Assembly: GCA_903875445.1 (NCBI GenBank)
Contig: CAIQWD010000068.1
Coordinates: forward strand, 1-64,000
DNA from: an uncultured delta proteobacterium
GTDB taxonomy: Bacteria > Desulfobacterota > Desulfobulbia > Desulfobulbales > Desulfocapsaceae
DNA: 64,000 nt
Direction of reading: 5' to 3'
This document shows positions 12,351 through 40,135 of the stretch, in pieces. The notes below the pieces were generated by a model that was not told where the DNA came from, did no database searches, and saw nothing but the letters and a program-made list of their open reading frames with translations. Every line of letters begins with the position of its first letter. Position 1 is the stretch's first letter. The position numbers were made by a program, and so were the translations under genes.

Positions 12351-13355
12351 ATGGATGCCCACGAACAGTTGTCTGTTTTGGACACTAGCTGCCTGCAGAA
12401 ATTTGTCGATACCTTGGCTGTAAATGGACAATACCCCTTAAAGGCTGCCGGCGTTGATGTCTTGCAGATGAATATCTGCCGAAAATGCAACCTTTTTTGC
12501 AAGCATTGCCATGTAGAAGCTGGGCCGCATCGCACTGAAATGATGTCCAAATCTCTTCTCGAAAAATGCCTTGATATTTTGCGAAACAATGCAATATCCA
12601 CCATCGATATTACCGGCGGTGCACCGGAAATCAATCCGTACCTGGAGTGGTTCCTCGATAACGCCTCACAGCTGAAGCGCAGACTCATCGTTCGCTCGAA
12701 CCTGACGCTTTTACTGGAGGATAGCTATCGACATTTTATCGATAGCTACGTCAGAAATAATGTTGAAATTGTCACGTCGCTGCCGCATTACAAGGCAGAA
12801 GGAACCGATAAACAACGCGGCAAGTGCGCGTTTGCAACTATTATTGAGGTCATTAAAAAATTAAATGCCAGGGGATACGGCAAAGAAAATTCCGGCCTCG
12901 TGCTCAACCTCGTGCATAATCCGACCGGCTTTTATCTGCCAGGCTCGCAACCCGCGCTGGCGCGGGAATATAAGTCCCGGCTTTTGAAAGATCATGGAGT
13001 GTATTTTAACGACCTGTTCTGCATCACCAATATGCCGGTCGGCAGATATCTTGAGCATCTTCAAAAAACTGATAGCTTGTCCGATTATATGACGGAGTTG
13101 GTGAATGCCTTCAATTCCGCTGCGGCCGAAAATGTGATGTGCAAAAATACCCTTTCCGTCAGTTATGATGGGCAGCTGTATGATTGTGATTTCAACCAGA
13201 TGCTGGAGTTGCCGACCGAAACCAATGCCCATTTGGATGACTTTGATATCGGCACACTAAGTCACCGCAGGATTGTCCTTGCTAATCATTGTTACGGCTG
13301 TACGGCGGGTTCGGGCAGTTCCTGTCAAGGCAGCACCGAAAAATCGGAGAAATAA
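12351..13355 (+). CDS. arsS: Arsenosugar biosynthesis radical SAM protein ArsS
   Basis: This 334-residue radical SAM enzyme has the cluster motif CNLFCKHC at residues 46-53. The ArsS-specific HCHVEAGPHRTEMM follows directly, then DITGGAPEINP, LVHNPTGFYLPG and the C-terminal HCYGCTAGSGSSC that binds a further cluster. Known ArsS enzymes join the 5'-deoxyadenosyl group of SAM to dimethylarsinous acid, giving 5'-deoxy-5'-dimethylarsinoyl-adenosine, the first dedicated arsenosugar intermediate. It starts directly after the AhpD-like gene and is followed three bases later by a nucleoside phosphorylase, so the three form a tight operon. The methyltransferase ArsM that would make the substrate is not in this window. 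Confidence 0.93.
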   Translation: MDAHEQLSVLDTSCLQKFVDTLAVNGQYPLKAAGVDVLQMNICRKCNLFCKHCHVEAGPHRTEMMSKSLLEKCLDILRNNAISTIDITGGAPEINPYLEWFLDNASQLKRRLIVRSNLTLLLEDSYRHFIDSYVRNNVEIVTSLPHYKAEGTDKQRGKCAFATIIEVIKKLNARGYGKENSGLVLNLVHNPTGFYLPGSQPALAREYKSRLLKDHGVYFNDLFCITNMPVGRYLEHLQKTDSLSDYMTELVNAFNSAAAENVMCKNTLSVSYDGQLYDCDFNQMLELPTETNAHLDDFDIGTLSHRRIVLANHCYGCTAGSGSSCQGSTEKSEK

Positions 13356-13358
13356 ACT

Positions 13359-14138
13359 ATGCAGAAGTGCGATATGGCGGTTATTACCGGTTCCGGGTTC
13401 TATGATTTTCCCGAACTGACGGATCCGCGTGCAGTCGAAATAACCACACCCTTTGGCGAAGTGCAGGCGGTTTGCGGCAGCTGCGACGGCAAAGCAGTAC
13501 TTTTTATCGCCCGGCATAAGAAAGAACACGCACTGCTGTCCAATATGATCAATCACAAGGCCAATATTTACGCCTGCCGACAGGCTCAGGTGGATGTCAT
13601 TATTGCGACCTCCATTGTCGGCCTGACCAACCCCGACTTGCCGCTTGCCAAGATATTGATCTTTAACGACCTCTTTTATCCTGACAACCGCCTGCCGGAT
13701 GGAAGCCACTGTACCTTTTTTACCGAAGAGAATCAAATCGGTCGCGGTCACTATCTTTTTGGATCACCATTTTTTGATGTCTCAGGTGTCCTGAAAGGCG
13801 AAGACGTCATCTCGGATATCACCTACGCCTACGTCAATGGCCCGCGATTTAATTCCAAAAAGGAGATCCGCTTTTTCGCCAACTACGCCGATGCGGTTAG
13901 CCAGACCGCCGGCCCGGAAGCCGTTCTGGCCGGAGAGCTGGAAATTCCCTATGTGCTGTTGGGGTACGGTGTGGACTATGCCAATGGGGTGAAAGAGGAA
14001 CCGACCCCGATCGATGTCTTGACGGAGAATATGCATCGCAGCAAAAATGCTTTTGCGCAAGCGGTCAGACTGCTTCTCGCATATAAGCAATATCATTTCA
14101 ATGGATTCGTATATCGTTTCGACAGTCCCCCGGAGTGA
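13359..14138 (+). CDS. MTAP/PNP-family nucleoside phosphorylase in the arsenosugar operon
   Basis: This 259-residue protein of the methylthioadenosine/purine nucleoside phosphorylase family is recognised by VITGSGFYDFPEL at the start, the phosphate-binding region FIARHKKEHALLS, and HKANIYACRQAQVDVIIATS. Family enzymes split 5'-substituted adenosines with phosphate into adenine and a sugar 1-phosphate. Beside ArsS the obvious substrate is dimethylarsinoyl-adenosine, whose adenine must be removed to give arsenosugars. That assignment is inferred from context. A GGAGAAA ribosome binding site precedes ATG 13359. Divergence from standard MTAP motifs (SGF instead of GTG, HKK instead of HGR) fits an altered substrate. 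Confidence 0.85.
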   Translation: MQKCDMAVITGSGFYDFPELTDPRAVEITTPFGEVQAVCGSCDGKAVLFIARHKKEHALLSNMINHKANIYACRQAQVDVIIATSIVGLTNPDLPLAKILIFNDLFYPDNRLPDGSHCTFFTEENQIGRGHYLFGSPFFDVSGVLKGEDVISDITYAYVNGPRFNSKKEIRFFANYADAVSQTAGPEAVLAGELEIPYVLLGYGVDYANGVKEEPTPIDVLTENMHRSKNAFAQAVRLLLAYKQYHFNGFVYRFDSPPE

Positions 14139-14161: not shown

Positions 14162-15298
14162 TCACCCGACTATCGTTGTCATGGCCCTTACGGCTGCATC
14201 GATATCGGCCTCAGTGGTGAAGGGACCGAGGCTGAAGCGGATCGTCCCGTCACCTAAGGTGCCGAGAGTCTCATGGACCAGGGGAGCGCAGTGCAAACCG
14301 GTGCGGACAGCGATATCGAAATCACCGTCGAGGATGGCGCCGACATCGGTGGCGGCAATGCCGTCCACCGTGCAGGCAAGGACCGGCAGATGATCGGCAG
14401 GATTGTCGGCCGCGTAAAGCTGCACTCGCGGCAACCGCTTGAGTCTATCTACAAGTTGGGCAAACAGCTGCATTTCGCAGGCATAATGCGCCTTATGATA
14501 GCTTTCGACAAAATCGACCGTCTCAGCCAGGCCGAGGATACCGAGAAGGTTGATGGTCCCGGCCTCAAGACGGCTGGGATAGAACAGCGGCTGCAGGGGA
14601 TTGGCGGAATCGATGCCGGTGCCCCCAAAACGAGTGGGTTGCGGGTTGAGATCCGGGGCAAGCACCAGCCCGCCGATGCCGGTCGGGCCGAGCAGGGATT
14701 TGTGGCCGGTGAAGGCCAGGCCCTGCACGTCCCATAATTGCATGTCGATCGGGATGCAGCCGGCGGTTTGCGCGACGTCGAGAATCAGCGGAATGCCATG
14801 CTGCCGGCAGATGGCGCCGATCTTGGCTATCCTCTGAATAGTGCCGAGGACATTGGAGGCGTGGGTGATTACGACCAGGCGGGTTGAAGGCCGGATGCAG
14901 GCGGCAACTTGGGCGGGATCAATATAGCCTTTGCTATCAAAGGGCAGCAGATCAAAGCTGATGATTCCCTGCTGCTGCAGGTGATGCAGAGGGCGCAGGA
15001 CGGAATTATGTTCGAGGCGGGAGCTGATCACATGATCACCCGGCCGAGCCAGGCCCTGGATCAAGGTATTCAGGGCATCGGTGGCGTTGGCGGCAAAACA
15101 GACATGGGCATCGTCTCCGGCCCCAAAGAATCGGGCAAGTTTCAACCGTACCGCCGAAACGGCCTCCTCCGCCTGCACCGCCCGGTCATAGCCGCCGCGA
15201 CCGGGGGAGGCACCAAGCTCCAGGTAACGTTCAAGAGCTCGGCGAAGGCAATCGCCGGGCTTTGGATAGGAGGTTGCGGCGTTGTCGAGATAGATCAT
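14162..15298 (-). CDS. Cysteine desulfurase family protein (class V aminotransferase fold)
   Basis: This 378-residue PLP enzyme has DNAATSYPKP at its N-terminus, ITHASNVLGT, a PLP-contacting DVAQTAGCIP, the Schiff-base Lys in FTGHKSLLGPTG near residue 197, and the catalytic Cys region RTGLHCAPLVH near 340. It should release sulfur from cysteine as an enzyme-bound persulfide. As the last gene of a run with a DsrC/TusE-like carrier and a molybdenum hydroxylase, it probably supplies sulfur to that enzyme's cofactor (compare NifS4 for xanthine dehydrogenase). This role is inferred. It starts 12 bp after the DsrC-like stop. Confidence 0.88.
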   Translation of the reverse strand: MIYLDNAATSYPKPGDCLRRALERYLELGASPGRGGYDRAVQAEEAVSAVRLKLARFFGAGDDAHVCFAANATDALNTLIQGLARPGDHVISSRLEHNSVLRPLHHLQQQGIISFDLLPFDSKGYIDPAQVAACIRPSTRLVVITHASNVLGTIQRIAKIGAICRQHGIPLILDVAQTAGCIPIDMQLWDVQGLAFTGHKSLLGPTGIGGLVLAPDLNPQPTRFGGTGIDSANPLQPLFYPSRLEAGTINLLGILGLAETVDFVESYHKAHYACEMQLFAQLVDRLKRLPRVQLYAADNPADHLPVLACTVDGIAATDVGAILDGDFDIAVRTGLHCAPLVHETLGTLGDGTIRFSLGPFTTEADIDAAVRAMTTIVG

Positions 15299-15309
15299 CC
15301 TGTCCCCTC

Positions 15310-15657
15310 TCAGCTGCAGGTTTTCGGATTCGGCAACCCGGCCAGTCGCCGCGCCCCGTTTTTGATGCCACCGGGAAAGACCGTCTCCAGTTCGAGGAGA
15401 GACATCCCCGTGCCCTTCTTCAGCTGGCTATTGAGCGGTGCTCGACCATGCCCGGCGTAAAATTCCCGGAGAAAACGGATTACCCGCCAGTGCTTCTCGA
15501 CAAGCTCGGCGAGTCCGCATTCCCCGGCCAGCATTATACAAAGTTCTTCGGTCCAGTCGCTGAAATCGTTGAGAAATCCCTCGTTATCAAAGACGATCTG
15601 CCGTTGCCCGATGATCCGGACAACGGGTTGCAAATCGGCGGCGGAGGAGCCTGTCAT
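15310..15657 (-). CDS. DsrC/TusE-family sulfur carrier with a single C-terminal cysteine
   Basis: This 115-residue protein matches the DsrC/TusE fold: VFDNEGFLNDFSDWTEEL, then KHWRVIRFLREFY, and a C-terminal arm GLPNPKTCS. The near-terminal Cys (residue 114) equals the persulfide-carrying CysA of DsrC. The second Cys of true DsrC, ten residues before it, is missing (ARR there). It therefore belongs with TusE-like sulfur-relay proteins rather than the sulfite reductase substrate DsrC. It lies between the molybdenum hydroxylase and the cysteine desulfurase with gaps of 7 and 11 bp, suggesting it hands desulfurase-derived sulfur to the molybdenum enzyme or its chaperone. Confidence 0.85.
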   Translation of the reverse strand: MTGSSAADLQPVVRIIGQRQIVFDNEGFLNDFSDWTEELCIMLAGECGLAELVEKHWRVIRFLREFYAGHGRAPLNSQLKKGTGMSLLELETVFPGGIKNGARRLAGLPNPKTCS

Positions 15658-15664
15658 CAGGTCC

Positions 15665-18331
15665 TTATTCCTTCCTCGCCAGGGCGGCCTTGACTTTGTC
15701 GGGGGTCGCCGGCAGGTCGCAGATCCATACGCCCGCAGCGTTGTTGATGGCGTTGATTACCGCCGGTGCGGTCGGCACCATGCACATCTCGCCGATGCCG
15801 GTAACTCCGAGGGGTCCCTTCGGCCGCGGGGTTTCGCGGATGATGGTTTCCATCTGAAAATGTTCCTTGATACTCGGGAACTTGAAAGTCACCCAGTCCT
15901 TGGTCTTGCCGGCGACATACTCCTCGCGGAGGGCAAAACCGACCCCCATATCCATGCCGCCTTCCAGCTGGCCGGTGAGATTCTGGGGATTGATCACCGG
16001 GCCGGCATCGACGGCGGTGGTCATTTTCAATACCCTCACCTTGCCGGTCTCGGTGTCGACCTCCAGTTCCGCCAGCTGCACGGCATGCACCTGCGACTCA
16101 AAGGACGGCCCCTGGCCGGTCTGGGTGTCAAGCGGCCCGGCATCCTCGTTCTTCTTGCGACCGAGATAGCGTCTGCTTTTTCCAGCGGCCTCAAGTTCGG
16201 CCCCGGTTTTTGCCCTCGCCTCCTGCATCGCCGCTTTCAGCTGCCTGAGGGCGTCGATCAGGGCGTTGCCGATCATATAGGTGATCCTGCTGCCCGCCGC
16301 AGGACCGCTTGCCGCGGTATTATCGGTATCACGGGTGTGGAGGCGGATACGCTCCATCGACAGGCCCATGAACTCGGCTGTCAACTGGCTGAGCATCGAG
16401 TCGTTGCCCTCGCCCGGGTCGGCCACCGCCGCATAGATGCTGATGCCGCCGTCGTCGTCAAGCTCGACCGAGGCCACCGACACATCGCCCGGACCGCCGA
16501 TGCCGAAGGCGCCGGCGGCAAGGCCGACACCGCGGCGGATCTTGCCCTGGCGAAACGGTGCTGCCTCCTGCACGGCCCGCAGGTAGTGCGGCCGTAGCGC
16601 CTCCAAAAGTTCCGGGAACGGCCATTCGGTGACGGTCCGACCGGTCGATTTGCTCTGCCCTGCTTTCAGGGAATTGCGCAGGCGGAATTCCAGTGGGTCG
16701 ATACCCATCTTTTCGGCCAGCATATCCATGGCGCATTCGAGGGCAAAATTGGCCTGGGGCGGACCGGCCCCGCGGGCGGCGCTGCCCCAGGGGTTGTTGG
16801 TATAGACCAGGCGACCGCGAGCGTCGACGTTGGGAATATTGTACGAGCCGGAGAGCATCAAGAGAGCCCGGTGCACCACCACATGGCCGATGGAATAATA
16901 GGCGCCCTTGTCGACCACGAAATCGTTGCAGTAGGCAGTCAGTTTGCCTTCCTTATCCGCCGCCAGCTTGACATCGAGGGCAAAGGAATGGCGCTTCGAG
17001 GTCATCTGCATGCTTTCGGCAAGGCTCGGAATATAGCGGACCGACCGACGGAAATGAAGCGCCGCGGCCCCGGCGATACCCTCGGAGATGACATCGATCT
17101 TGATACCGAATTGGCCGCCGGAATAGGCCTCGACATACTTCATATTCTCCCAGCCAAGTGCCGCCTGGAGCATCGCCAGGTGAAAGTGGATATTGATGCT
17201 GCGGCCGATGATGACCAGCTTATCCTCTTCCTCGGCATCCTCGCTTTTTTCCCAGTAGGCGATGGTCGCCTCGGGTTCAAGCGGGGCCTGGTGGTTGATC
17301 TGGGTCTTGAACTTGGCCTCGATTACCGCAGCCGAACTACGCAGGGCCTCCTGCGCATTGCCTTTCACCTGCGGCTGATTGAAGCAGAGATTGGGAAAGT
17401 CCGGGTGCAGCTGGGCCGCGCCTGGCGCAAGCGAGGCCTCGGGGCTGTCGAGAACCGGCAGGGGTTCAAGCTCGACCTTGACCGCGGCCAGGGCCGCTTC
17501 GGCCTGGGCACGGGTTGTAGCCGCCACCGCCAGGATCGGATCGCCGATATAGCGAACTGTATCGCGGCAGAGCACCGGCCGGTCGGCCACCAGATATTTC
17601 AGGGTATTGGTACCTTTAATATCGGCGGCGGTCATGACCCCGGCGACACCCGGCATGGCTGCGGCGGTAGTAGCATCGATGGAAACGATCCGCGCATGGG
17701 GAAGAGCACTGCGCAGCACCGCCAGCTCAAGGGCGCCCTGCAAACGGAAATCGGCGGTGAAATGGGCAGTGCCGCAGGCCTTGGCCAATGCAGAGGGCCG
17801 TGGGTGGGAAACGCCCAGCCCGCCCTGATCCGGCAGAGGTCGGAGACTATCCGGGCTCAGTTCACCGCGGAGAAAACGACCGGCCAGCTGTACCGCCTCG
17901 ATGATCTTGGTATAGCCGGTGCAGCGGCACAAATTGCCACGCAAGGCCTTAATGATCTCTTCTTCGGTCGGATCGGCATTGCTATCGAGCAGGGCCTTCG
18001 TCGCCATAATCATCCCCGGGGTGCAGAAACCGCACTGGATGGCCCCGGAGAGGACAAAGGCCTCCTGGATGAGATGCGGATTTTCCGGCGTCCCCAGGCC
18101 TTCGACGGTGATGACCTCCGCCCCGTCGAGATCGGCGATACGGGCAAGGCAGGCACGCACCGCCTTCTTGTTGACGATGACCATGCAGGCGCCGCACTGG
18201 CCCTTGCGATCACAGGATTGCTTGGCGCCGGTGAGCCGCAGATCCTCGCGCAGCAGATCGAGTAAGGCGGTTTTCGGCTCGGCGATCCATTCATGCCAGG
18301 TGCCGTTGACGCTGATTCGAACTTTTTTCAT
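15665..18331 (-). CDS. Molybdenum hydroxylase, fused 2Fe-2S / Mo-cofactor aldehyde oxidoreductase
   Basis: This 888-residue single-chain xanthine-oxidase-family enzyme lacks an FAD domain. The N-terminal plant-type 2Fe-2S domain has CDRKGQCGAC (about 40-49); the second 2Fe-2S helical domain has CGFC and CRCTGY (about 100-140). The two molybdopterin domains follow from about 175 to the end, with the catalytic Glu in GVTGIGEMC near residue 857. This is the architecture and near length of Desulfovibrio gigas aldehyde oxidoreductase (907 residues). It should oxidise an aldehyde with water as oxygen source and pass electrons to a ferredoxin- or flavodoxin-like acceptor. Encoded 57 bp after gabT, it may oxidise succinate semialdehyde. 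GAGGAG precedes ATG 18331. Confidence 0.9.
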   Translation of the reverse strand: MKKVRISVNGTWHEWIAEPKTALLDLLREDLRLTGAKQSCDRKGQCGACMVIVNKKAVRACLARIADLDGAEVITVEGLGTPENPHLIQEAFVLSGAIQCGFCTPGMIMATKALLDSNADPTEEEIIKALRGNLCRCTGYTKIIEAVQLAGRFLRGELSPDSLRPLPDQGGLGVSHPRPSALAKACGTAHFTADFRLQGALELAVLRSALPHARIVSIDATTAAAMPGVAGVMTAADIKGTNTLKYLVADRPVLCRDTVRYIGDPILAVAATTRAQAEAALAAVKVELEPLPVLDSPEASLAPGAAQLHPDFPNLCFNQPQVKGNAQEALRSSAAVIEAKFKTQINHQAPLEPEATIAYWEKSEDAEEEDKLVIIGRSINIHFHLAMLQAALGWENMKYVEAYSGGQFGIKIDVISEGIAGAAALHFRRSVRYIPSLAESMQMTSKRHSFALDVKLAADKEGKLTAYCNDFVVDKGAYYSIGHVVVHRALLMLSGSYNIPNVDARGRLVYTNNPWGSAARGAGPPQANFALECAMDMLAEKMGIDPLEFRLRNSLKAGQSKSTGRTVTEWPFPELLEALRPHYLRAVQEAAPFRQGKIRRGVGLAAGAFGIGGPGDVSVASVELDDDGGISIYAAVADPGEGNDSMLSQLTAEFMGLSMERIRLHTRDTDNTAASGPAAGSRITYMIGNALIDALRQLKAAMQEARAKTGAELEAAGKSRRYLGRKKNEDAGPLDTQTGQGPSFESQVHAVQLAELEVDTETGKVRVLKMTTAVDAGPVINPQNLTGQLEGGMDMGVGFALREEYVAGKTKDWVTFKFPSIKEHFQMETIIRETPRPKGPLGVTGIGEMCMVPTAPAVINAINNAAGVWICDLPATPDKVKAALARKE

Positions 18332-18349
18332 TGTATCTCCTCTTTTTCA

Positions 18350-18374
18350 GGAGGGTGCATACAATGCACCCTCC
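18350..18374 (-). promoter_or_regulatory. Perfect 11-bp hairpin between gabT and the Mo hydroxylase gene
   Basis: GGAGGGTGCAT, loop of three, ATGCACCCTCC. On the transcribed minus strand it sits 8-10 bases before the GAGGAG ribosome binding site of the molybdenum hydroxylase and just after the gabT stop. No T-run follows, so it may be an RNA-processing or stability element or partial terminator that sets the gabT to hydroxylase ratio. Confidence 0.55.
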
Positions 18375-18388
18375 GATACCAACTTGAA

Positions 18389-19699
18389 TTAGGCGCGGAT
18401 AGCTGCAAGCCCGTCGCGGACGATAGCCAGCCCCTTTTCGAGCTGCGCATCGGTAATTACCAGCGGCATCAGAAACCTGATGATATTACCGTAGGCACCG
18501 CAGGCAAGGATGATGAGGCCCCGGTCAAAACAGAATTTCACCAGCGCCTTGGTTTCCGCCGCCGCCGGCTCCTTGGTCTTGCGGTCTTTCACCAGCTCCA
18601 TGGCGATCATCGGCCCGAGGCCGCGCACATCGCCGATTATTGCATTCTCTTTTTGCATGACCTGCAGGGCTTCCCGCAGCTTGTTACCAAGCTTTTTACC
18701 TTTTTCCAGCAGATTTTCCTCGGTAAAAATATCAAAAACTGCAAGTGCGGCAGCGCAGGCCAGCGGATTGCCGTTATAGGTGCCGCCGATGCCGGAGGCG
18801 TGGACGCTGTCCATGATCTCCTTTCTGCCGACCACGGCGCTGAGCGGCATGCCGGCGGCCAGACTCTTGGCGACGGTGGTCAGGTCGGCGGCGACGCCGT
18901 ACTGCTCCATGGCAAACATCGTTCCGGTACGACCGATACCACTCTGCACCTCATCGGCGATGAGGAGAATGTTGTTGGCCTTGCAGATGGCTTCCAGTTT
19001 CTTAAAATACTCGGGTGGCGGGGCAACGAAACCGCCTTCGCCCTGTACCGGTTCGAAAATGATGGCGGCGGTTTGTTCGGCCGGTACGTAATTGACGAAG
19101 AAGTCCTGCAGCCGGTCGGCGCATTCAACGCCGCATCCTGGATACTGCAGATTATACGGGCAGCGGTAGCAATTGGCAAAGGGCATCCGGTACACTTCCG
19201 GGGCAAAGGGCCCGAGGCCGAGCTTGTAGGGTTTGACCTTGGAGGTCAGGGTCATGCACATCAGGGTGCGTCCGTGAAAGCCGTTTTCAAAGGCGATGAT
19301 CGCCGGTTTCTTGGTGTAGTAGCGGGCAATTTTCACGGCGTTTTCCACCGCCTCGGCGCCGCTGTTGGCAAACATCGCTGCCTTGGGGAAATCCCCCGGA
19401 ACCGCCGCGCAGAGCTTCTCGGCGAGCCGGACCGGTCCCTCGTAGGGGGTCACCATAAAGCAGGTATGGGTGAATTTTTCCGCCTGATCTTTTATCGCCT
19501 GAACCACCTTCGGATGCGAGTGGCCGACGTTCATCACCGCGATGCCGCCGCCGAAATCGATATACTCCCGGCCCTCGACATCGGTGAGCAGCGCTCCCTT
19601 GGCGTGGGCGATATAGCGATCGGTGCCGCTGACATTGCCTTTGGCGATAACGTTATTGCGACGTTCGTGCAAGCTGCTGTTGGTTTGTTTGGTATTCAT
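18389..19699 (-). CDS. gabT: 4-aminobutyrate aminotransferase
   Basis: This 436-residue class III aminotransferase shows YIDFGGGIAVMNVGHSHP, the PLP-contacting FANSGAEAVENAVKIAR, FENGFHGRT, IFEPVQGEGGF, LLIADEVQSGIGRTG, and the Schiff-base Lys in VAKSLAAGMPLSAVVG near residue 275. The IGGTYNGNPLACAAAL end is typical of GabT. It transfers the amino group of GABA to 2-oxoglutarate, giving succinate semialdehyde and glutamate. Closely related omega-amino acids such as 5-aminovalerate remain possible. It is the first gene of the operon 19699 to 14162 and has a strong sigma54 promoter at 19786-19803. Confidence 0.92.
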   Translation of the reverse strand: MNTKQTNSSLHERRNNVIAKGNVSGTDRYIAHAKGALLTDVEGREYIDFGGGIAVMNVGHSHPKVVQAIKDQAEKFTHTCFMVTPYEGPVRLAEKLCAAVPGDFPKAAMFANSGAEAVENAVKIARYYTKKPAIIAFENGFHGRTLMCMTLTSKVKPYKLGLGPFAPEVYRMPFANCYRCPYNLQYPGCGVECADRLQDFFVNYVPAEQTAAIIFEPVQGEGGFVAPPPEYFKKLEAICKANNILLIADEVQSGIGRTGTMFAMEQYGVAADLTTVAKSLAAGMPLSAVVGRKEIMDSVHASGIGGTYNGNPLACAAALAVFDIFTEENLLEKGKKLGNKLREALQVMQKENAIIGDVRGLGPMIAMELVKDRKTKEPAAAETKALVKFCFDRGLIILACGAYGNIIRFLMPLVITDAQLEKGLAIVRDGLAAIRA

Positions 19700-19785
19700 G
19701 GTCTTCCTCTCTTTTTTTTAAAACAGTCATCTGACAACGGTCCGGAGCTCCCGGATCATTATGATAAATAAGCTAGTCCACGTAT

Positions 19786-19803
19786 TGCAAAATTTGCGCC
19801 AAC
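19786..19803 (-). promoter_or_regulatory. Sigma54 promoter of the gabT operon
   Basis: On the minus strand the element reads TTGGCGCAAATTTTGCA, with GG and GC exactly ten bases apart, matching the sigma54 consensus TGGCAC-N5-TTGCA at -24/-12. Transcription would start about 75 bases before the gabT ATG. An AAA+ activator must drive it; the regulators at 23168 and 26998 are candidates. I could not see a shared enhancer site. Confidence 0.75.
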
Positions 19804-19825: not shown

Positions 19826-22800
19826 TTATGGGCAATTGGCCATCGCCCTCCTCTCTAAATGCGCGGCAACCGCTTCAAGAAAAGCCTCCTCCCTGTTGCC
19901 GTGATACACCATCGACGAGGCGATTTCACTGGCCAGGATGGCAAATTTAATCTTCTCCGGCAACCTCCCTAGCCTATCCCGGAAGTGGCTGCCCTCCTTG
20001 GTCAGCATCTCGGGGAGGTGTTCGAGGATGGCCTGACGATACAATGGCTGGTCGCAAACCTCCGGATGTGCCCGGAAGTAGCTGAACAGGCGAGCATAGC
20101 AATCGTTGATTTCCCGGCTGACCGCATTGGAGATATCGGTGTAGAGAAGTTCTCCGGCTGCCTCCCGGTGCCGACTGAAGATCACCTTGGCCTCTTCCTC
20201 CGCCCGTTTTTCCAGGATTTTCAAGACATCCGCGACATATTCCGGTTTATTTGCGAGAAACTCCTCCTCGCTCAGCAGGAGGTTGGCGATTATCTCGTAG
20301 GAGGAAGAGATAACCCCGCATTTATTGGCGGAGGCATCGCGCATCAGGATAATTCCACCTTTCTGCAGGGCCGTCCTCGCCTCAGGGGTGATAAACGAAT
20401 TAGCACCCTCGACAATAACCCGGCACAAGGGCTCGCCGGTCTCCGTAAAAAAGCCCTGCCAGTTACCGGCATCGATCGTCTCCGGTCTGCCGCCCGCCGG
20501 GATAAACAGGTCGGCCGGCACGGTGAAGATAAGGGAGTTGTACTCCTTGTAGAACTCATCATTGGAGATCCACTGCTCAACCAGGCCACCCTCGGTGCGA
20601 ATCACCTTCTTGAACAACTCCTGCATACCTTGCCGCCGGGTGATGCTGCGGTACAGGAGATAGCCGCCCGGATGCAAGGCCTGGGGGTTAAAGGCACTCA
20701 CATCGTCTTTGAGAATAATCGCCCGCAGGGCCTCATGGTCGGCACCCTGCGGATCTACAAGGGCTGCCGAACCGTCGAGGATCAGGGGTATCTGCACCTT
20801 TTGGCAGCGGTCGAGAAGGATGGCCAGGCAGTTGCCGGCCACATCGCCGTTCGGACCGCCGGTAAAGATCACCCGGAAGGGATCGCGGGCCATCTTGATG
20901 CCAAGGGTCGCGAGACAGACCTCGGCGAAGCGGATCACGCCGGTCGAGGTCACCCCGTAATCCTTATGGTTGATTCCCACCTTTTTGCTGGACATGATCC
21001 CGGCGCCGAGGATGTAGCCGCGGCGCACCGCCTCCCGCGCCACCAACTCGATCATGGAGTCGTGCATGTTCTCATCCGGCCCGAGTTCAATGGGTTCCTC
21101 CTCCCGGTAGTAGTCGACCACCCGTGGGTCACGGGCCTTGCCGTCTTTTGTGACGAAGAGATCAAGAAAACCGCTGATCAGGGCGTACTGGAGGAGATGG
21201 AGCCGGCGGCGCAGTTGCCGCCCGTCCAAACCTGTCTCTGCCTCCAGGACGGCGACCATCTTCGAGCCACCCTCATAGATATCCTTGTTTTTCAGATGCT
21301 GGGTATGGGCCAGGACATAGGTCTCGCGAAAGAGGCTGTTGGCGGCGGTAACATAATCGTCGCGGCCCTGGGTGAGGATCGTCCGCCAGCCGCCCCGGGC
21401 GATATCCGAGAAGCCGATATGGTAGGCCGAACCCGACCTGCTGGAAAAATAGGTCACCCGGAAAGGTCGGTCGGCCGGCAGGTCGCCGGTGAATTCGCTG
21501 TCCAGGTGGCCGAGATAAGCCGGATCGAGGCGAAAGGCCAGGGCTCGTTTCTCGGCAATGAAGAAATTGGTCTTCAGGGTATGGGTGATAAATAGCAGGC
21601 AGCAGCGGAAGATGGTCCGCCGGAACTGATCGAGAAAGCGGCGGCCGGTGGTGAAGTTTTCGACCATCTCGGTGGTTTCCAGCCTGGCAATGGCATAGCG
21701 GTTGTCCCGACCCGCATCCTCTGGGTCGAAGCGGACGTGAAAGAGACGTACCAGCTGCAAAGTGAGTTCAGGATGGTTGTGAAAGGCCCGCGACACCCCC
21801 TCCAAATCGAAACTGTCCGGGTGGGCATGGGCGAGATTGGTGTGACAGAAACCAATAAAGGCGCGCACCAGGGTGACATCCGGGCCACCGGCGATGCCAC
21901 CGGCAATAAAAGTGTCGTAGGAAAGCGAGGTCATCGGCAGGAGCAGGGTGGTATACATCTCCGCTCGAAGCCTAGCAAATAGCTCTGATTTTTTATCGAC
22001 CAGCTGGCCCCCTTCCGCCCTGACGTAGAAAGTTGCCAGCAAAAACGGCTGCTCCCCTTCATGGATAGTCAGACAATAGGCGCGGTGCACATGCAGCTCC
22101 AGACGCCGGAAGACCTCGAAGATCTGCAGCAGAAATCCCTTGTCCGGCGGATTGGCAACCCCGAAGAGTACCCGCGACTCCGGCACGCCAGCCACTCCTG
22201 CGCCCTCCTCCACATCGAGAAAAATGCCGCCGAGGGTGCGGCATTCGCCGAACAGCCGGAGCAGGCGGGCAATCCTCTGGGGTGGCGAGGTGCGGACATA
22301 TTTTTTATTGTTACTCCACAAAAGATCGAGCAAGGACGGCACATCGCCTGCAGCGACTGTACTCTCTTTTGCGGCGACCTCGGCCAGCACCGCCCGGACG
22401 ATCTCCTCCGGGATAGCCGTTTCCTCAGTCTCCGGAAGAACGCTCTGATCCGCTACGCAGTTGAAGTCAAACTCCAGCACCTCAAGGGGAAAAGCGGTGT
22501 TCGGGATAGGTCCGTAAGAGGTGTGCAGCTGGGCATAGGCAATCGGCCTCTCCGGCAACGAACGCAGGGCCGAATGCAAGGCCCCCGGCACCCCCAGCTG
22601 GGCGATGCTGATGTTTTTCTCATTGTCCGCCAGGGTGAAGCGGCGGTTGCGCTCCAAGAGGTGAAGATCGGCGGCCAGAACCGCCACTTCCTCGATATCC
22701 TCACTGTTGCAGAAAAAGAAATAGGGATGCATGCCGGTCTTCAGCCAGGCGAGATTCTCCGCCAGCATGGCCCTGGTATTGGCAATAGAATTTTCAACCT

Positions 22801-22834
22801 GGGCAAGTATCAGCCCGTGATCCTTGACGACCAT
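19826..22834 (-). CDS. Large NAD-dependent glutamate dehydrogenase
   Basis: This protein of about 1002 residues belongs to the large GDH family (GDH2/NAD-GDH, 115-kDa type). The catalytic core is recognised by SSRSGSAYHIGFSDIARGGWRT, SKKVGINHKDYGVTSTGV, the dinucleotide-binding FTGGPNGDVAGN and VEGANSFITPEAR. The N-terminal ~400 residues form the regulatory region. It oxidises glutamate to 2-oxoglutarate and ammonium with NAD+, the catabolic direction. Next to gabT it would regenerate the 2-oxoglutarate that GABA transamination consumes. ATG 22834 is chosen because GAGAGGTGG precedes it; an ATG at 22855 lacks a ribosome binding site. Confidence 0.92.
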   Translation of the reverse strand: MVVKDHGLILAQVENSIANTRAMLAENLAWLKTGMHPYFFFCNSEDIEEVAVLAADLHLLERNRRFTLADNEKNISIAQLGVPGALHSALRSLPERPIAYAQLHTSYGPIPNTAFPLEVLEFDFNCVADQSVLPETEETAIPEEIVRAVLAEVAAKESTVAAGDVPSLLDLLWSNNKKYVRTSPPQRIARLLRLFGECRTLGGIFLDVEEGAGVAGVPESRVLFGVANPPDKGFLLQIFEVFRRLELHVHRAYCLTIHEGEQPFLLATFYVRAEGGQLVDKKSELFARLRAEMYTTLLLPMTSLSYDTFIAGGIAGGPDVTLVRAFIGFCHTNLAHAHPDSFDLEGVSRAFHNHPELTLQLVRLFHVRFDPEDAGRDNRYAIARLETTEMVENFTTGRRFLDQFRRTIFRCCLLFITHTLKTNFFIAEKRALAFRLDPAYLGHLDSEFTGDLPADRPFRVTYFSSRSGSAYHIGFSDIARGGWRTILTQGRDDYVTAANSLFRETYVLAHTQHLKNKDIYEGGSKMVAVLEAETGLDGRQLRRRLHLLQYALISGFLDLFVTKDGKARDPRVVDYYREEEPIELGPDENMHDSMIELVAREAVRRGYILGAGIMSSKKVGINHKDYGVTSTGVIRFAEVCLATLGIKMARDPFRVIFTGGPNGDVAGNCLAILLDRCQKVQIPLILDGSAALVDPQGADHEALRAIILKDDVSAFNPQALHPGGYLLYRSITRRQGMQELFKKVIRTEGGLVEQWISNDEFYKEYNSLIFTVPADLFIPAGGRPETIDAGNWQGFFTETGEPLCRVIVEGANSFITPEARTALQKGGIILMRDASANKCGVISSSYEIIANLLLSEEEFLANKPEYVADVLKILEKRAEEEAKVIFSRHREAAGELLYTDISNAVSREINDCYARLFSYFRAHPEVCDQPLYRQAILEHLPEMLTKEGSHFRDRLGRLPEKIKFAILASEIASSMVYHGNREEAFLEAVAAHLERRAMANCP

Positions 22835-23167
22835 GCTCCACCTCTCATTTTGCATTTATTGGTTTTTGAAGACTGCCCGTTGAAGCCACCGGAGGCGATC
22901 AACAGGGAGTGAAAATGCAAACTGCGGGCCGGAAACAACATTTCCAATATTTCTTAACCATTACTTATTGTTACAAGAAATATGCCGACATCCTGGATAA
23001 AATTTTGATTAGAAAATGAATCGATTTTTCTCGAAATGACCGATAAATATACTGTATATGTCGATCTAATTATGGATCATCGAATTATCAAAATTTGTGT
23101 TGATATTTCTGCTCGATATATTCAAGACTGATCTGCATGCGAATCAAAAGACCATCCCCAGAGTCTT
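22835..23167. other. Intergenic region upstream of glutamate dehydrogenase
   Basis: This region contains the sigma54 element at 22916-22932 and, about 170 bp upstream of it, an inverted repeat TATCAA-N8-TTGATA (23086-23105). That repeat is a possible enhancer site for the adjacent activator. The region is AT-rich. Confidence 0.5.
22916..22932 (-). promoter_or_regulatory. Sigma54 promoter of NAD-glutamate dehydrogenase
   Basis: On the minus strand it reads CCGGCCCGCAGTTTGCA, with GG and GC ten bases apart and a consensus TTTGCA -12 box; the -24 box departs from TGGCAC at two positions. The predicted start of transcription is about 70 bases before ATG 22834. The sigma54 activator gene lies immediately upstream. 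Confidence 0.65.
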
Positions 23168-24592
23168 TCAACCGATCTTATACTGCTTGAATTTGCGGAC
23201 CACCGACGGCTGGCTGATGCCGAGCTGTCGGGCGACCTCGCGGGTCGTTCGGCAGTGTTTTCGCGCCTCAAGCAACAACTCTTTTTCATAGGCCTGCAAT
23301 TTTCCGCCAAGATCCTCCTCTTCTCCTCCGGTAGAAAAGGCATGGCCGTTGCGGCAATCCCGGACGGAGGTGGCCGAGACGGTGTCGAGAATAAACTCAT
23401 TGATCTGCTCGTCGTTACTCATGACCACCGCATTTTCGAGTATATTGCGAAGCTCCCTGACATTACCGGGAAACCGGTAATCCTGTAGGCTGCGAATGGC
23501 CCGCGGGCTGATGCTCTTGGCGCATTTATAGGTGCGGTTGGCCTCGGCCAGATAAAAGCGCGTCAGCCCGGCGATGTCCTCCCGCCGTTCCCGTAAGGGA
23601 GGAATCTGCAGGATAAAGGAGTTGAGACGGTAGTAGAGATCCTTGCGAAATGCCTTTTCCCCGACCAGGCCGAGCAGATCCTTGTTGGTGGCGGCAATAG
23701 TCGCGCATTCGACCTTGATCGAACGGGTGCCGCCGACCCTGCGGATCTCATGGTTATCGAGGTATTTGAGGAGCTTTGCCTGAAGCGGCAGCGGCATGTC
23801 GCCGATCTCATCGAGAAAGAGCGTGCCGCCCTGGGCCAGTTCGAATAAACCGATCTTGCCCTTTTCGTCGGCACCGGTGAACGCTCCTTTTTCGTAGCCG
23901 AAGAGCTCCGCCTCAAGCAGGTTTTCCGGCAGGGCGGCGCAGTTGATCTCGACCAGGGGATGGTTATTGCGGGAACTGTTTTTATGAATGAGTCTCGCTA
24001 AAAGGCCTTTGCCGGTTCCCGACTCGCCAAGGATGAGAATATTCGAAGCCCCTATCTGCGAGAGCTTCAGAGACATCTGGAGAATCCGCCGCATAGCGGC
24101 ACTCTCGGCGATGATGTCGTTGCGCTCAAGTTCGAGCAGGGAGATGCCGGTCAGCTCCTCGCGGTATTTTTCTCGCGCCTGCTGGCTCTCTTCGAATTCT
24201 TTTCTGAGGGTGTTCAACTCGGTCATATCCCGCTCGTTGACGACGATCAGGACAATCCGCCCATCTTCGGCAAGCGAAGGCGTTCCGGTTGACAACAGAT
24301 ATTTGCCGGTCTTGGCAATATGCTGCATCACCGTCTGCCGGCGACCGCTGCCGAGGACCCTCGTTGTCACCGACTGGTCGAAGATCTTGCGGGCCACCAG
24401 GTCCTTGATATTGTGGCCGATGACATCCTCCGCCCGAATGCCGTTCAGGGTCTCGGAAGCCTTGTTGATGTTGATAACCACGCCCTTGCCGTCGCAGACC
24501 CAGATCCCGTCGGAAGAGGAATGGAAGATGGTGGCAAACTGGCGACTTAAGGTCTCAAAGGAAATTTCAGTGTAATTTTCGGCGGTATGCAT
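23168..24592 (-). CDS. PAS-domain sigma54-dependent transcriptional activator
   Basis: This 474-residue one-component enhancer-binding protein has an N-terminal PAS domain (about 15-130; SDGIWVCDGKGVVININKA) and an AAA+ domain with Walker A GESGTGKGLL (about 190) and the sigma54-contacting GAFTGA in YEKGAFTGADEKG. The Fis-type helix-turn-helix at the C-terminus (TTREVARQLGISQPSVVRKF) is of the RocR/TyrR style. It has no receiver domain, so it is probably switched by a ligand in the PAS pocket. It lies directly upstream of, and in line with, NAD-glutamate dehydrogenase and the gabT operon, both with sigma54 promoters, and is the likeliest activator of both. GGAGGTGG precedes ATG 24592. Confidence 0.92.
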   Translation of the reverse strand: MHTAENYTEISFETLSRQFATIFHSSSDGIWVCDGKGVVININKASETLNGIRAEDVIGHNIKDLVARKIFDQSVTTRVLGSGRRQTVMQHIAKTGKYLLSTGTPSLAEDGRIVLIVVNERDMTELNTLRKEFEESQQAREKYREELTGISLLELERNDIIAESAAMRRILQMSLKLSQIGASNILILGESGTGKGLLARLIHKNSSRNNHPLVEINCAALPENLLEAELFGYEKGAFTGADEKGKIGLFELAQGGTLFLDEIGDMPLPLQAKLLKYLDNHEIRRVGGTRSIKVECATIAATNKDLLGLVGEKAFRKDLYYRLNSFILQIPPLRERREDIAGLTRFYLAEANRTYKCAKSISPRAIRSLQDYRFPGNVRELRNILENAVVMSNDEQINEFILDTVSATSVRDCRNGHAFSTGGEEEDLGGKLQAYEKELLLEARKHCRTTREVARQLGISQPSVVRKFKQYKIG

Positions 24593-24870: not shown

Positions 24871-26994
24871 ATGAAATACAACAGCAAGAAAACAATAGGC
24901 TTAATCACCGTCTGTTCCATTGTGATCGTGATCGCCATGCTGGTCAATTACCGGATCACCCAGCATGTGGTGGAACGTACCGTCATCGCCCAGCAGGAGG
25001 ATATCGCCGGCAAAGCCGCCAATACCGTCGAGATATGGCTCAAACAACAGATGAAAATTCTTGAGGCCGCGGCCAACTCCATCTCCCCAAGCGATCTCAG
25101 TCAAAATCCGGCAACCATGCTGCCCCTGCAGATGGCGATGAAGGCCGGCCATTTCACCGATGTCTATATCGGCACCCCGGCGGGCGAACTGATCGACGGT
25201 GCCAAGTGGCAGCCTCCGCCCGGCTATGATCCCCGCAACCGGCCCTGGTATAAACGGGCGGTAGAGACCGGAACCATCAGCTTCACCACCCCCTATATCG
25301 ACATGGTGACCAATAAACTGGTCATTGCCCTGGTCACACCGCTCTTTGCCGACGGCAAATTTGTCGGAGTCATCGGAGCCGATACAGTCCTCGAGTCACT
25401 TGTCGAAAATGTCCTCAATTATAAGCAAAGTGAATCGGGCTTTGCCTTCATCGTCGAGAAAAGCGGCACGATCATCGTCCATCCGAACAAGGACTATATC
25501 ATGCGGGCCAAGCTGCAGGTCATCGAGCCGGAGCTGGAACAGAAGGTCGGCACCTTCAACACCTCCGGCAGCGGCACCATCTTTTACCGAAGTGCCGACG
25601 GCCGGGAGCACATCCTCTCGTCGAAGCAGATAAGCGGTTCGGACTGGTTTCTCTGCGTCACCGTCCCCCGTGATGAGGCCTATTCGATGACACGGAAGAC
25701 AACCATGGTCTTTGCCATGGAGATTGTCTTAAAACTCCTCGGCATCCTCCTATTCATCGTCCTCCTCGGCCTTGGCTGCAGCAGCATAGTCGTCTTTCTC
25801 TTCAGCAAACGCTACAGTACCGCCGTCCAGCAACACCGCGAGGAACTATCCGGAATCAATAAAGATCTTGAGTGGAATATCACCAAGAGGATGGAGGTCG
25901 AGACCTATTACAAAACGCTTTTCAACGTCGCCAACGATGCGATTCTCATCAGCAATGACCTGGCCTATGTCGAGTGCAACCAGAAGGCGGTGGAGATGTT
26001 CGAGCTGTCTCGCGAGCAGCTGCTGCAAAAGACCATCCTCGACTGCTCTCCGGAATTGCAGCCGGACGGCGCGCGCAGCGACGAAAAACTGGCGATGATC
26101 CTCCAGGACTCGCGGAACGGCAAGCAGAATGTCTTTCGCTGGTCCTTTCTCCGCGCCGGCGGCATCGAGTTCCCGGCGTCGGTGAGCCTGACCAGTTTCA
26201 GGCTGAAAAACCGCGATCTGGTGCTGTCGAGCATCCGCGATATCTCCAAGCGGGTCGATGCCGAAGGCCAGCTGATGCAGGCCCAGAAAATGGCCGCCGT
26301 CGGCGAGATGCTCGGAGCCATCGCCCACCAGTGGCGGCAGCCGCTCAATACGCTTGCCACCTATATTTCCAGCCTCCAGGCCGCCTATTACAACCAGGCG
26401 CTGTCAAAGGAGGTAGTGGAACGGGTGGTGGCCGGGGCAAGCGACCAAATCACCTTCATGTCGAAGACCATCGACGACTTCCGCAACTTCTTCAAACCTT
26501 CAAAAACCAAGGGTCCCATTGACCTCCTCAAGGCGATCATCAGTGCCGTTAAGCTGATGGAGGCGCAGATGCGCCACAACCGCATCAAGCTGACGGTGAA
26601 AAACCTGACCGGCGCCAATTCGCTCATGGTCTTCGGCTACGAGGGTGAATTTATCCATGTCCTCGTCAATATCCTCGCCAACGCCAAGGACGCTATCCTG
26701 GAAAACGGCAGCAAGACTGAAGGCTTGGCCGAGAGAAACATCGACATCCTCATCCTCGGCAGCCGCGACCTGGCGATCGTCGAGATCATCGATAACGGCG
26801 GCGGCATCCCCAGCCATCTCTTGATGAAAATTTTCAACCCTTACTACACCACGAAAAGCACCTCCGCCGGTACCGGCATGGGCCTCTATATGTCGAAAAT
26901 GATTGTTGAAAAAGAAATGGATGGGGAACTCCGGGCGGAAAATACCGAGACCGGGGCACGCTTCACCATCCGCCTGAAGAAGATGGAGGCCTAA
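24871..26994 (+). CDS. dCache-domain sensor histidine kinase
   Basis: This 707-residue membrane kinase has membrane helix 1 (about 8-25), a periplasmic dCache domain (30-275), helix 2 (about 285-315), a PAS domain (345-470), and a kinase core with the phosphorylated His in GAIAHQWRQPLNTL and an ATPase domain with GTGMGLYMSK. The distal Cache pocket carries YDPRNRPWYKRA followed by TTPYIDM and IGADTV. This resembles the R-x-W-Y ... Y-x-D ... D pattern known from amino-acid-binding dCache sensors, so an amino acid or GABA-like ligand is plausible. The stop and the start of the response regulator are three bases apart. It should phosphorylate that regulator. Confidence 0.9.
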   Translation: MKYNSKKTIGLITVCSIVIVIAMLVNYRITQHVVERTVIAQQEDIAGKAANTVEIWLKQQMKILEAAANSISPSDLSQNPATMLPLQMAMKAGHFTDVYIGTPAGELIDGAKWQPPPGYDPRNRPWYKRAVETGTISFTTPYIDMVTNKLVIALVTPLFADGKFVGVIGADTVLESLVENVLNYKQSESGFAFIVEKSGTIIVHPNKDYIMRAKLQVIEPELEQKVGTFNTSGSGTIFYRSADGREHILSSKQISGSDWFLCVTVPRDEAYSMTRKTTMVFAMEIVLKLLGILLFIVLLGLGCSSIVVFLFSKRYSTAVQQHREELSGINKDLEWNITKRMEVETYYKTLFNVANDAILISNDLAYVECNQKAVEMFELSREQLLQKTILDCSPELQPDGARSDEKLAMILQDSRNGKQNVFRWSFLRAGGIEFPASVSLTSFRLKNRDLVLSSIRDISKRVDAEGQLMQAQKMAAVGEMLGAIAHQWRQPLNTLATYISSLQAAYYNQALSKEVVERVVAGASDQITFMSKTIDDFRNFFKPSKTKGPIDLLKAIISAVKLMEAQMRHNRIKLTVKNLTGANSLMVFGYEGEFIHVLVNILANAKDAILENGSKTEGLAERNIDILILGSRDLAIVEIIDNGGGIPSHLLMKIFNPYYTTKSTSAGTGMGLYMSKMIVEKEMDGELRAENTETGARFTIRLKKMEA

Positions 26995-26997
26995 GCC

Positions 26998-28404
26998 ATG
27001 ATCACCTCGGAAATGAAAAACTGCCATATCCTCCTGGTTGACGATGAGCAGTCGGAACTTGACGCCTACAGCCTCTTGCTCAACTCCATGGGCATAAAAA
27101 ACGTCGTCACCCTCGCCGACAGCCGCATGGTCGCTACGACGCTTGCGAAGATGCAGTCGCCGGTCCTGTTTCTTGACCTCAACATGCCGCACATGACCGG
27201 CCAGGACGTCCTGCGGGAGCTGAAGATCACCCATCCGCAGGTGCCGGTAATCATCATTACCGCCAATTCCGAGATCGAGACCGCCGTCGAGTGTCTCCGC
27301 CTCGGCGCCCATGATTATCTGGTCAAACCGATCGACCTGAAGATGTTCAGCTCCGCCCTGCGCAACGCCCTGGAGATCAGCCTCTTGCGCAACGAAGTAA
27401 TGTCCTTGAAGGGCATTTCCTTTGCGGCCCATGCCCCGCGTCATAGGGCCTTCGAACGGATCGTCACCCGCAGTCCGGGCATGCTGTCGATCTTCCAGTA
27501 TATCGAATCCATTGCCGCAAGCGGCATGCCGGTCCTGATCCTCGGTGAAACCGGCTCGGGCAAGGAATTGATCGCTAAAGCCATCCACGAAGTCAGTGAT
27601 CTTACCGGCAATTACGTGGTGGTCGATGTCTCGGGCCTTGACGATACGCTCTTCTCCGACACCCTCTTCGGCCATGCCAAGGGGGCCTATACTGGAGCCG
27701 AAGGCGTCCGCGCCGGGCTTCTTGAAAAGGCCGCGGGCGGCACTATTTTTCTTGACGAGATCGGCGACTTAAGCGAGATGTCCCAGGTGAAACTGCTCCG
27801 TCTCCTGCAGGAAAATATCTACTATCCGCTCGGTTCCGACCAGCCGAAGCAGTGTCATGCGCGGATCATCACCGCCGCCAATAAAGACCTGACCATGCTG
27901 GCCGGACGGGACGGCGAGTTTCGCATGGATCTCTATTACCGACTGAGCACCCATCTCATCCGCCTGCCGCCGCTCCGCGAGCGCCGCGAGGATATCCCGG
28001 CTCTGGTTGCCTTCCTGGCGACGGAGGCGGCCGCCGCCATGCACAAAGAGACACCATCCGTCAGCGACCAGGCGATGAACCTCCTGCTGCATCACCCCTT
28101 CTGGGGCAATATCCGGGAGTTAAAGACCTATATCGTCGATGCGGTGGCCCGCTGCGAAAACGGCAGGATCGAGGAAGATCTGATCTCCGGCCGGCTGGTG
28201 GCCCAGGTCTCTGCCGGCCACGAACCCGCTTCCGGTGCCTCCTCCCTGACCTCTCTCTTCGGCCGTTTCCCGAGCCTTGAAGAACTTGTGGAATATGCCA
28301 CCAGCGAGGCTCTCGCCAGCTCCGACAACAACCAGAGTCAAGCCGCTCGTCTCCTCGGCATCTCCCGACAGGCTTTGCACAAGCGCTTGCGAAAACGCGG
28401 GTGA
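26998..28404 (+). CDS. NtrC-family sigma54-dependent response regulator
   Basis: This 468-residue regulator has a receiver domain (about 8-125) with its phospho-Asp in VLFLDLNMPHMTG, an AAA+ domain with Walker A GETGSGKELI near 183, a GAYTGA form of the sigma54-contacting loop, and a C-terminal Fis-type helix-turn-helix (QSQAARLLGISRQALHKRL). It pairs with the dCache kinase at 24871. GATGGAGG overlaps the kinase 3' end and serves as ribosome binding site. Palindromes GTCAAC-N4-GTTGAC occur just downstream, in front of the ABC importer, and again in front of the chemoreceptor at 37326. It is the natural candidate to bind them and switch on both sigma54 promoters. Confidence 0.93.
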   Translation: MITSEMKNCHILLVDDEQSELDAYSLLLNSMGIKNVVTLADSRMVATTLAKMQSPVLFLDLNMPHMTGQDVLRELKITHPQVPVIIITANSEIETAVECLRLGAHDYLVKPIDLKMFSSALRNALEISLLRNEVMSLKGISFAAHAPRHRAFERIVTRSPGMLSIFQYIESIAASGMPVLILGETGSGKELIAKAIHEVSDLTGNYVVVDVSGLDDTLFSDTLFGHAKGAYTGAEGVRAGLLEKAAGGTIFLDEIGDLSEMSQVKLLRLLQENIYYPLGSDQPKQCHARIITAANKDLTMLAGRDGEFRMDLYYRLSTHLIRLPPLRERREDIPALVAFLATEAAAAMHKETPSVSDQAMNLLLHHPFWGNIRELKTYIVDAVARCENGRIEEDLISGRLVAQVSAGHEPASGASSLTSLFGRFPSLEELVEYATSEALASSDNNQSQAARLLGISRQALHKRLRKRG

Positions 28405-29942: not shown

Positions 29943-30036
29943 GGCCGGTGGTGAGCAATCACCATTTTTTTCAGGCGGGTCCAGATCGTAGCGGCCCCGC
30001 CTGCCCCCTTCGTTTTGGTTCTTCCGGGAGGTAGCA

Positions 30037-32029: not shown

Positions 32030-32033
32030 GGCC

Positions 32034-38114: not shown

Positions 38115-40135
<2,021 letters not shown>

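Follow-up and report, generated by a model that had tools for sequence, protein, structure and literature searches.

The window examined here, a stretch of 64,000 nucleotides from an uncultured delta proteobacterium of the Desulfocapsaceae (GenBank assembly GCA_903875445.1, contig CAIQWD010000068.1, positions 1 to 64,000), carries on its minus strand a run of four genes which encode, in order, a 4-aminobutyrate (GABA) aminotransferase (GabT), a molybdenum (Mo) aldehyde oxidoreductase, a small DsrC/TusE-like carrier protein and a TIGR01977 cysteine desulfurase (Table 1). The intergenic gaps are 57 bp between gabT and the Mo gene, 7 bp between the Mo gene and the carrier gene, and 11 bp between the latter and the desulfurase gene. 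Read along the minus strand, gabT is preceded by the genes for a sigma54 activator and a 1009-residue glutamate dehydrogenase (GDH)-like protein and by a sigma54-type promoter site; the gene beyond the desulfurase (13359-14138) is convergent. A first-pass annotation had named the four genes in this order and on this strand, and profile matches and matches to the Protein Data Bank (PDB) establish that they are real. The GabT, whose best PDB match is the Escherichia coli enzyme (E 4.1e-125), is the sole match to itself in its own genome at E 1e-60.

Table 1. Coordinates of the gabT-Mo enzyme region and its surroundings, as positions in the window (cut-offs in parentheses)
Feature	Position	Strand	Particulars
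Class V cysteine desulfurase or selenocysteine lyase	14162-15298	minus	378 aa; TIGR01977, 412 bits (377)
DsrC/TusE-family single-cysteine carrier	15310-15657	minus	115 aa; TIGR03342, 70.9 bits (53.5); PF04358
Mo aldehyde oxidoreductase, Desulfovibrio gigas AOR type	15665-18331	minus	888 aa; best PDB match D. gigas aldehyde oxidoreductase (1sij), 588.8 bits
Perfect 11-bp stem GGAGGGTGCAT-TGT-ATGCACCCTCC	18350-18374	minus	Between gabT and Mo gene; no T tract; RNA fold z -2.92
gabT, 4-aminobutyrate aminotransferase	18389-19699	minus	436 aa; TIGR00700, 558 bits (506.65)
sigma54-type site TGGCGCAAATTTTGCA	19786-19801	minus	GG-N10-GC; 10 of 12 consensus bases
Large GDH-like protein	19826-22855	minus	1009 aa; PF05088, PF00208
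PAS-type sigma54 activator (bacterial enhancer-binding protein)	23168-24592	minus	PF00158, 215 bits; PAS; HTH_50
dCache histidine kinase and sigma54 response regulator	24871-28404	plus	Between activator and transporter
Liv-type ABC transporter	28707-33456	plus	PF13458, PF02653 twice; three of five genes scanned with Pfam

The Mo enzyme, the carrier and the desulfurase form a strongly conserved three-gene module, of which gabT is not a part. When orthologues of the Mo enzyme were sought in 297 genomes of the phylum, they were recovered, at 58-78% identity, in 11 genomes besides that of the window (in one case split over two contigs); beyond these the identity of the matches falls from 58% to 44% and lower. 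Downstream of the Mo gene, 10 of the 11 (11 of 12 with the window's genome) encode both the carrier and the desulfurase; the remaining one, G033, the most divergent of the orthologue genomes, has no carrier match. At eight loci of other xanthine oxidase (XO)-family genes (seven at 39-43% identity, one partial at 32-40%), neither partner was found at E 1e-4. Coming from the opposite direction, a scan of genome contigs for the carrier alone, with patterns built from its own motifs that carriers without those motifs would escape, yielded 39 loci, and in all 39 a Mo orthologue (57-88% identical) and a desulfurase adjoin it. The order Mo enzyme-carrier-desulfurase holds in 37 of them, the desulfurase coming first in L114 and L121; two desulfurase matches are short, one running off its contig (L141) and the other being a fragment (L134). 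Six of these loci belong to genomes of the phylum survey, so that the 39, four more survey loci and the window make 44 module loci. The counts are by tblastn; a gene caller based on codon usage found 39 of the 44 carriers and stretched some starts. The loci are labelled Thermodesulfobacteriota, Chloroflexota and Actinomycetota, mostly from metagenome-assembled genomes, some of which may be wrongly assigned. The four-gene order anticipated by the first-pass annotation is not what is conserved: gabT was seen to head the module in the window only, although a GabT lies within 5 kb of it in at least five of the 44 loci (the window, L114, L116, L117 and L118, the last a 48-residue fragment at a contig end). 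The figure of five is a lower bound, several contigs ending close by, and compares with roughly 0.2 such loci expected from an estimate of two gabT genes per 4.5 Mb and 10-kb windows, L116 and L117 being relatives of each other.

The Mo enzyme is a single chain with the domain order 2Fe-2S, 2Fe-2S, hammerhead, MoCoBD1 and MoCoBD2, and, like the D. gigas aldehyde oxidoreductase (AOR; Mop in the XO family), it has no FAD domain. Its eight Fe-S cysteines and the catalytic glutamate (E848) are invariant in 11 sequences, the window's included, aligned to 1sij. Its score against the AOR equivalog NF045668 is 771.4, below the curated cut-off of 1100, which suggests that it is related to that equivalog but constitutes a different one. 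A quick tree places all 46 sequences at least 55% identical to it in one clade (support 100), apart from 22 D. gigas-type paralogues. That clade takes in two enzymes with no carrier match of their own. One is a second copy in L119 (827-3490; 63% identical), which likewise has no desulfurase match; part of a third Mo enzyme begins at 14092 of the same locus, at the contig end. The other is the G033 enzyme (L043:7657-12177), downstream of which lies a different class V pyridoxal phosphate (PLP) enzyme (27%), and this locus offers a natural test case for the role of the carrier.

The carrier is set apart from the DsrC proteins of the same organisms. Each of the 12 survey genomes, the window's included, has one DsrC-family gene outside the module, and 11 have a second within it, G033 having only the first. 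All 12 nonmodule proteins end in GAC...GC and keep both cysteines, whereas the C-terminal motif of all 11 module carriers is GARRxxGLPNPK[ST]C, so that the C-terminal CysA, conserved as in DsrC and E. coli TusE, is kept and CysB (0 of 11 versus 12 of 12) is replaced by arginine. With its single cysteine, a protein of this kind is unable to make the CysA-CysB bond found within DsrC, but it can carry a persulfide. In the desulfurase, K200 and C337 (in the motif RxGLHC), which we take to be the PLP lysine and the reactive cysteine, are invariant in 11 sequences. Across 41 genomes, namely, the 12 of the survey (with G033) and 29 from the carrier scan, XdhC was found in 38, among them the window's. 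In L112 and L121 the XdhC gene stands, together with that of a MobA-like nucleotidyltransferase, no more than 4 kb from the module; the idea that the module substitutes for XdhC was dropped on these grounds. Molybdate ABC transporter-type genes are near the module in L119 and L124 and, judged by clustering, in L115.

A dedicated cysteine desulfurase supplying the sulfur of the Mo=S ligand, as we propose here, has a precedent in the XdhC-NifS4 system of Rhodobacter capsulatus, in which NifS4 sulfurates the XdhC-bound Mo cofactor (Moco) directly; no DsrC/TusE-type carrier is named in the available text of that report (PMC2997495). The available part of a second report describes no Moco phenotype for E. 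coli tusBCD and tusE deletions (PMC3831636). Since NifS4 acts without an intermediary and the loss of TusBCD/TusE leaves Moco unaffected, a DsrC/TusE-family carrier placed between a desulfurase and XdhC or the Mo enzyme would, to our knowledge, be new. The first-pass suggestion that the Mo enzyme has its own sulfur relay is well supported as far as the conserved module goes (39/39 loci), while sulfuration itself stays a prediction from that linkage.

The surroundings of gabT in the phylum suggest what the module might be doing in the window. At E 1e-140, GabT was found in 45 genomes and 52 places of a 395-genome sample, at most four candidates being scored per genome, and the neighborhoods of 51 of these places (the window left out) were searched to 7 kb by tblastn at 1e-10 with queries from these same loci, a procedure that misses weaker homologues. 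Downstream of gabT and on the same strand, 12 of the 51 have a member of the aldehyde ferredoxin oxidoreductase (AFOR) family, a tungsten-type enzyme. Four of these AFOR genes lie within 163 bp of gabT, and a LivK-like gene intervenes in six of the other eight. An aldehyde dehydrogenase, by comparison, lies within 7 kb in just one place, and on the opposite strand. LivK-like proteins, which belong to a common family, are near gabT in 25 places, and a large or small GDH gene follows it on the same strand in eight. In the close relative G297 the order is activator (66% identical to that of the window), gabT (79%), AFOR and a small GDH, the last 95% identical to the product of window gene 38115-39461; this is the genome with the closest module (L111, 88%), which sits on another contig than the gabT-AFOR pair. 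In G325 the AFOR gene follows gabT after 10 bp. A downstream AFOR is also seen in, e.g., L179, L185, L187, L189, L212, L217 and L220, several of which have a Liv-type transporter and a sigma54 activator. An AFOR-linked GABA cluster devoid of an aldehyde dehydrogenase apparently recurs in the phylum. No AFOR match was found in the window's genome, which is rated 95% complete, whereas 36 of the 41 genomes have some. With AFOR in the same slot in G297 and unmatched in the window's genome, on the simplest reading the Mo module appears to fill the slot held behind gabT by AFOR in relatives. The first-pass proposal of a route from GABA to succinate through a low-potential metal oxidoreductase thereby receives indirect support, both from the predominance of AFOR over aldehyde dehydrogenase behind gabT (12/51 against 1/51) and from the G297 arrangement. 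Its companion claim, that the usual NAD(P)-dependent enzyme is lacking, did not hold up: a canonical succinate-semialdehyde dehydrogenase (SSADH) is encoded elsewhere in the same genome, at G000:C110 (TIGR01780, 677.8 against a cut-off of 646.35; PRK11241, 715 against 828).

The promoter noted upstream of gabT is present as a sigma54-type site with 10 of 12 consensus bases, a score equaled in about 0.3% of 300 shuffles of the upstream gap (a rate of 0.003). Sites of at least 10/12 precede gabT in four of 13 loci against 0.11 expected, three of the four being the window and its two nearest relatives. As a general feature of the Mo gene, such a site was rejected: 10/12 sites precede that gene in three of 37 loci (0.39 expected), and the three (L116, L117 and L120) are close relatives. 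The PAS-type activator is likely to be the regulator of the gabT operon. Its homologues (66%) immediately precede gabT in G297 and G298, and in 19 of the 51 places a homologue at 39-55% stands no more than 7 kb from gabT, such activators being common. The Liv-type transporter may import GABA or some similar amino acid; it is tied to the system by LivK-like proteins 79% identical to that of the window (28707-29942) in the gabT clusters L174, L177 and L183. Its two presumed ATPase genes (32034-33456) fall outside the Pfam scan, and one of them clusters with an ABC ATPase family. The histidine kinase and response regulator are connected with the GABA system by position only. A Moco riboswitch was also considered and rejected: positions 13000-34000 gave no Rfam match that exceeded the gathering score.

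Taking these findings together, we propose, with a probability of roughly one half (0.48), that the window holds an operon for GABA catabolism under sigma54 control, with a Mo aldehyde oxidoreductase module replacing the tungsten-type AFOR of relatives and the carrier relaying sulfur to Moco. In such a pathway, GABA would be taken up by the Liv-type transporter and converted with 2-oxoglutarate by GabT, as assigned at the family level, to succinate semialdehyde and glutamate, the upstream 1009-residue GDH probably regenerating the 2-oxoglutarate. The Mo enzyme would then oxidize succinate semialdehyde with water to succinate, its pair of [2Fe-2S] clusters conducting the two electrons to a flavodoxin or ferredoxin. 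For its maturation, the desulfurase is predicted to transfer sulfur from cysteine as a persulfide to the C-terminal cysteine of the carrier, which would deliver it to XdhC-held or enzyme-bound Moco to form the Mo=S ligand. The wider proposal, that the carrier is a dedicated chalcogen carrier maturing this Mo clade in at least three phyla, and that one such module has displaced AFOR as a ferredoxin- or flavodoxin-linked succinate semialdehyde oxidase, is more tentative, and we would put it somewhat short of an even chance.

Several observations weigh against this proposal. The gabT gene directly heads the module in only one of the 44 loci, the window itself (six offer no upstream sequence to judge), and the close relative L112 has the module with no gabT within 20 kb. 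A close GabT is missing from five of the 12 survey genomes (at E 1e-60) and from 14 of the 29 carrier-scan genomes (at E 1e-100), which implies further uses for the module. No AFOR is near gabT in 36 of the 51 places, and in three it is a distant homologue (28-32%) lying upstream. Given the canonical SSADH at C110, the Mo route need not be the sole one, and no ferredoxin or flavodoxin was noticed among the genes of the cluster, where no specific search for one was made. As for the sulfur relay, the available text of two reports has the D. gigas AOR active without a sulfido ligand (PMC3877041 and PMC10223205), the E. coli deletions cited above point the same way, and the presence of SelD over cut-off in 39 of the 41 genomes keeps selenium in play. 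Finally, the perfect 11-bp stem at 18374-18350 may separate the expression of gabT from that of the Mo gene, so that a single transcript is not to be assumed. It was rejected as a terminator, having no T tract and no match in the terminator scan; this inverted repeat could be an operator, a processing site or an expression break. Among the relatives examined, none has such an 11-bp stem ahead of the Mo gene, five having unrelated stems of 8-9 bp.

The diversity of module neighbors raises the possibility that the Mo enzyme acts on other aldehydes, such as 4-aminobutyraldehyde or glutamate semialdehyde, or in detoxification, its place behind gabT being incidental and the C110 SSADH oxidizing the succinate semialdehyde. 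The most frequent group of neighbors consists of aldehyde dehydrogenase genes of various types, near the module in nine of the 44 loci (eight of the nine were scanned). They include a 4-aminobutyraldehyde dehydrogenase 28 bp upstream in L111, the closest module (PRK13473, 644.4 against 615), a Δ1-pyrroline-5-carboxylate (P5C) dehydrogenase 21 bp upstream in L144 (TIGR01236, 762 against 613.6), a P5C dehydrogenase-like gene 9 bp upstream in L123 (404, under the 648 cut-off) and a piperideine-6-carboxylate dehydrogenase-like neighbor in L149 (695.9, under 730). CoA-transferase-type pairs lie beside the module in L114, L125 and L135, assigned by Pfam for L125 and by clustering for the others, and the remaining neighbors comprise formate-dehydrogenase-like molybdopterin oxidoreductases (at the Pfam level) and genes of no clear theme. 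With neighbors so varied, the Mo clade may serve several amino-acid-derived aldehydes, and in the available text on the D. gigas AOR that enzyme accepts many (PMC3877041); these points and the rarity of gabT directly upstream would suit an incidental placement. Several of the same neighbors, however, act at C4-C6 semialdehyde steps. AFOR, for which no match was found in the window's genome, occupies the same slot in G297 and G325 and follows gabT in 12 of the 51 places; we regard an incidental position as unlikely. Another alternative has GabT acting on 5-aminovalerate or another omega-amino acid, with glutarate semialdehyde or the like as the substrate of the Mo enzyme. GabT-family enzymes are often promiscuous, and the CoA-transferase pairs of L114, L125 and L135 would suit an acid-activating route, but the window's GabT scores over the TIGR00700 equivalog cut-off and no CoA-transferase is among the identified genes of its cluster; we consider this alternative improbable.

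The chalcogen and its destination invite two further alternatives. The carrier and the TIGR01977 enzyme could pass on selenium, making the Mo enzyme a selenium-dependent molybdenum hydroxylase. Clusters of that type (EF2568/SelD/YqeB) likewise link a TIGR01977 enzyme and a small sulfurtransferase-like protein to a Mo hydroxylase, and in the available text describing them the TIGR01977 protein EF2568 is called probably a selenocysteine lyase (PMC2276186). SelD, moreover, is over cut-off in just two of 14 control genomes, against its near ubiquity among the 41. Yet the small protein of those clusters, in the same text, is TIGR03527 and their marker is YqeB (TIGR03309), which exceeds its cut-off in only 25 of the 41 genomes and is unmatched in the window's genome, in G295 and in G297. 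Two drafts, G300 and G317, have no selD over cut-off, and the two full-length selD genes of the window's genome (G000:C113:107288 and G000:C28:125645) carry one in-frame TGA each, which fits ordinary selenocysteine use. We rate this as improbable as the 5-aminovalerate alternative. Slightly more doubtful still is that carrier and desulfurase merely ride along and supply sulfur to another target, such as tRNA thiolation or molybdopterin synthase. E. coli TusE does function in tRNA thiolation, and IscS with TusA in molybdopterin synthesis, according to the available part of PMC5372717; against this stand the 39/39 linkage with a single Mo clade across phyla, the 0/8 at loci of other XO-family genes and the difference of the carrier, which lacks CysB, from the genome's own DsrC.

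All parts of the proposed GABA operon are of known families; their combination, the presumed role of the carrier and the exchange of Mo for AFOR appear new within the open-licence literature of PubMed Central (PMC). In that text, nothing was found that joins TusE, DsrC and aldehyde oxidoreductase, nor anything joining AFOR, GABA, semialdehyde and anaerobic work, and tungsten with semialdehyde, aminobutyrate and aldehyde oxidoreductase occurs together only in unrelated biosensor work. With the GabT-GabD shunt the operon would share GabT and, presumably, succinate semialdehyde, but in place of the aldehyde dehydrogenase it has the Mo oxidoreductase where others have AFOR. The latter would presumably catalyze the same reaction, although the Mo enzyme is of an unrelated protein family and presumably uses another metal. 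If the proposal is true, these anaerobes would obtain low-potential electrons instead of NAD(P)H from GABA catabolism, through AFOR in several lineages and through Mo in that of the window, a natural exchange of metals at one position of a pathway. A further consequence would be a new sulfur route to Moco through a DsrC/TusE-type carrier. Unlike the D. gigas AOR, which needs no sulfido ligand according to the text cited above, the window enzyme has a carrier and a desulfurase encoded next to it; which enzymes of the D. gigas type hold Mo=S and which Mo=O, an old question, would become directly testable, with Mo=S predicted in clades with the module and not in those without it.

Other gene groups were noted in passing. 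The window's genome has, at G000:C89 (L171:6558-9488), a piperideine-6-carboxylate dehydrogenase (762 against 730) beside a lysine 6-transaminase (679 against 520.8), a pair that constitutes a lysine route through an ordinary aldehyde dehydrogenase. Another kind of gabT operon is seen in L165, where the genes after gabT encode a carboxyltransferase-domain protein and then a biotin carboxylase, and, judging from similar gene lengths, in L166. Convergent with the Mo cluster is an arsenosugar-type pair (window 12351-14138), in which an arsS-type radical SAM gene (TIGR04167, 402 against a cut-off of 300) is followed by a methylthioadenosine phosphorylase-like gene (TIGR01694, 126.6, under its cut-off).

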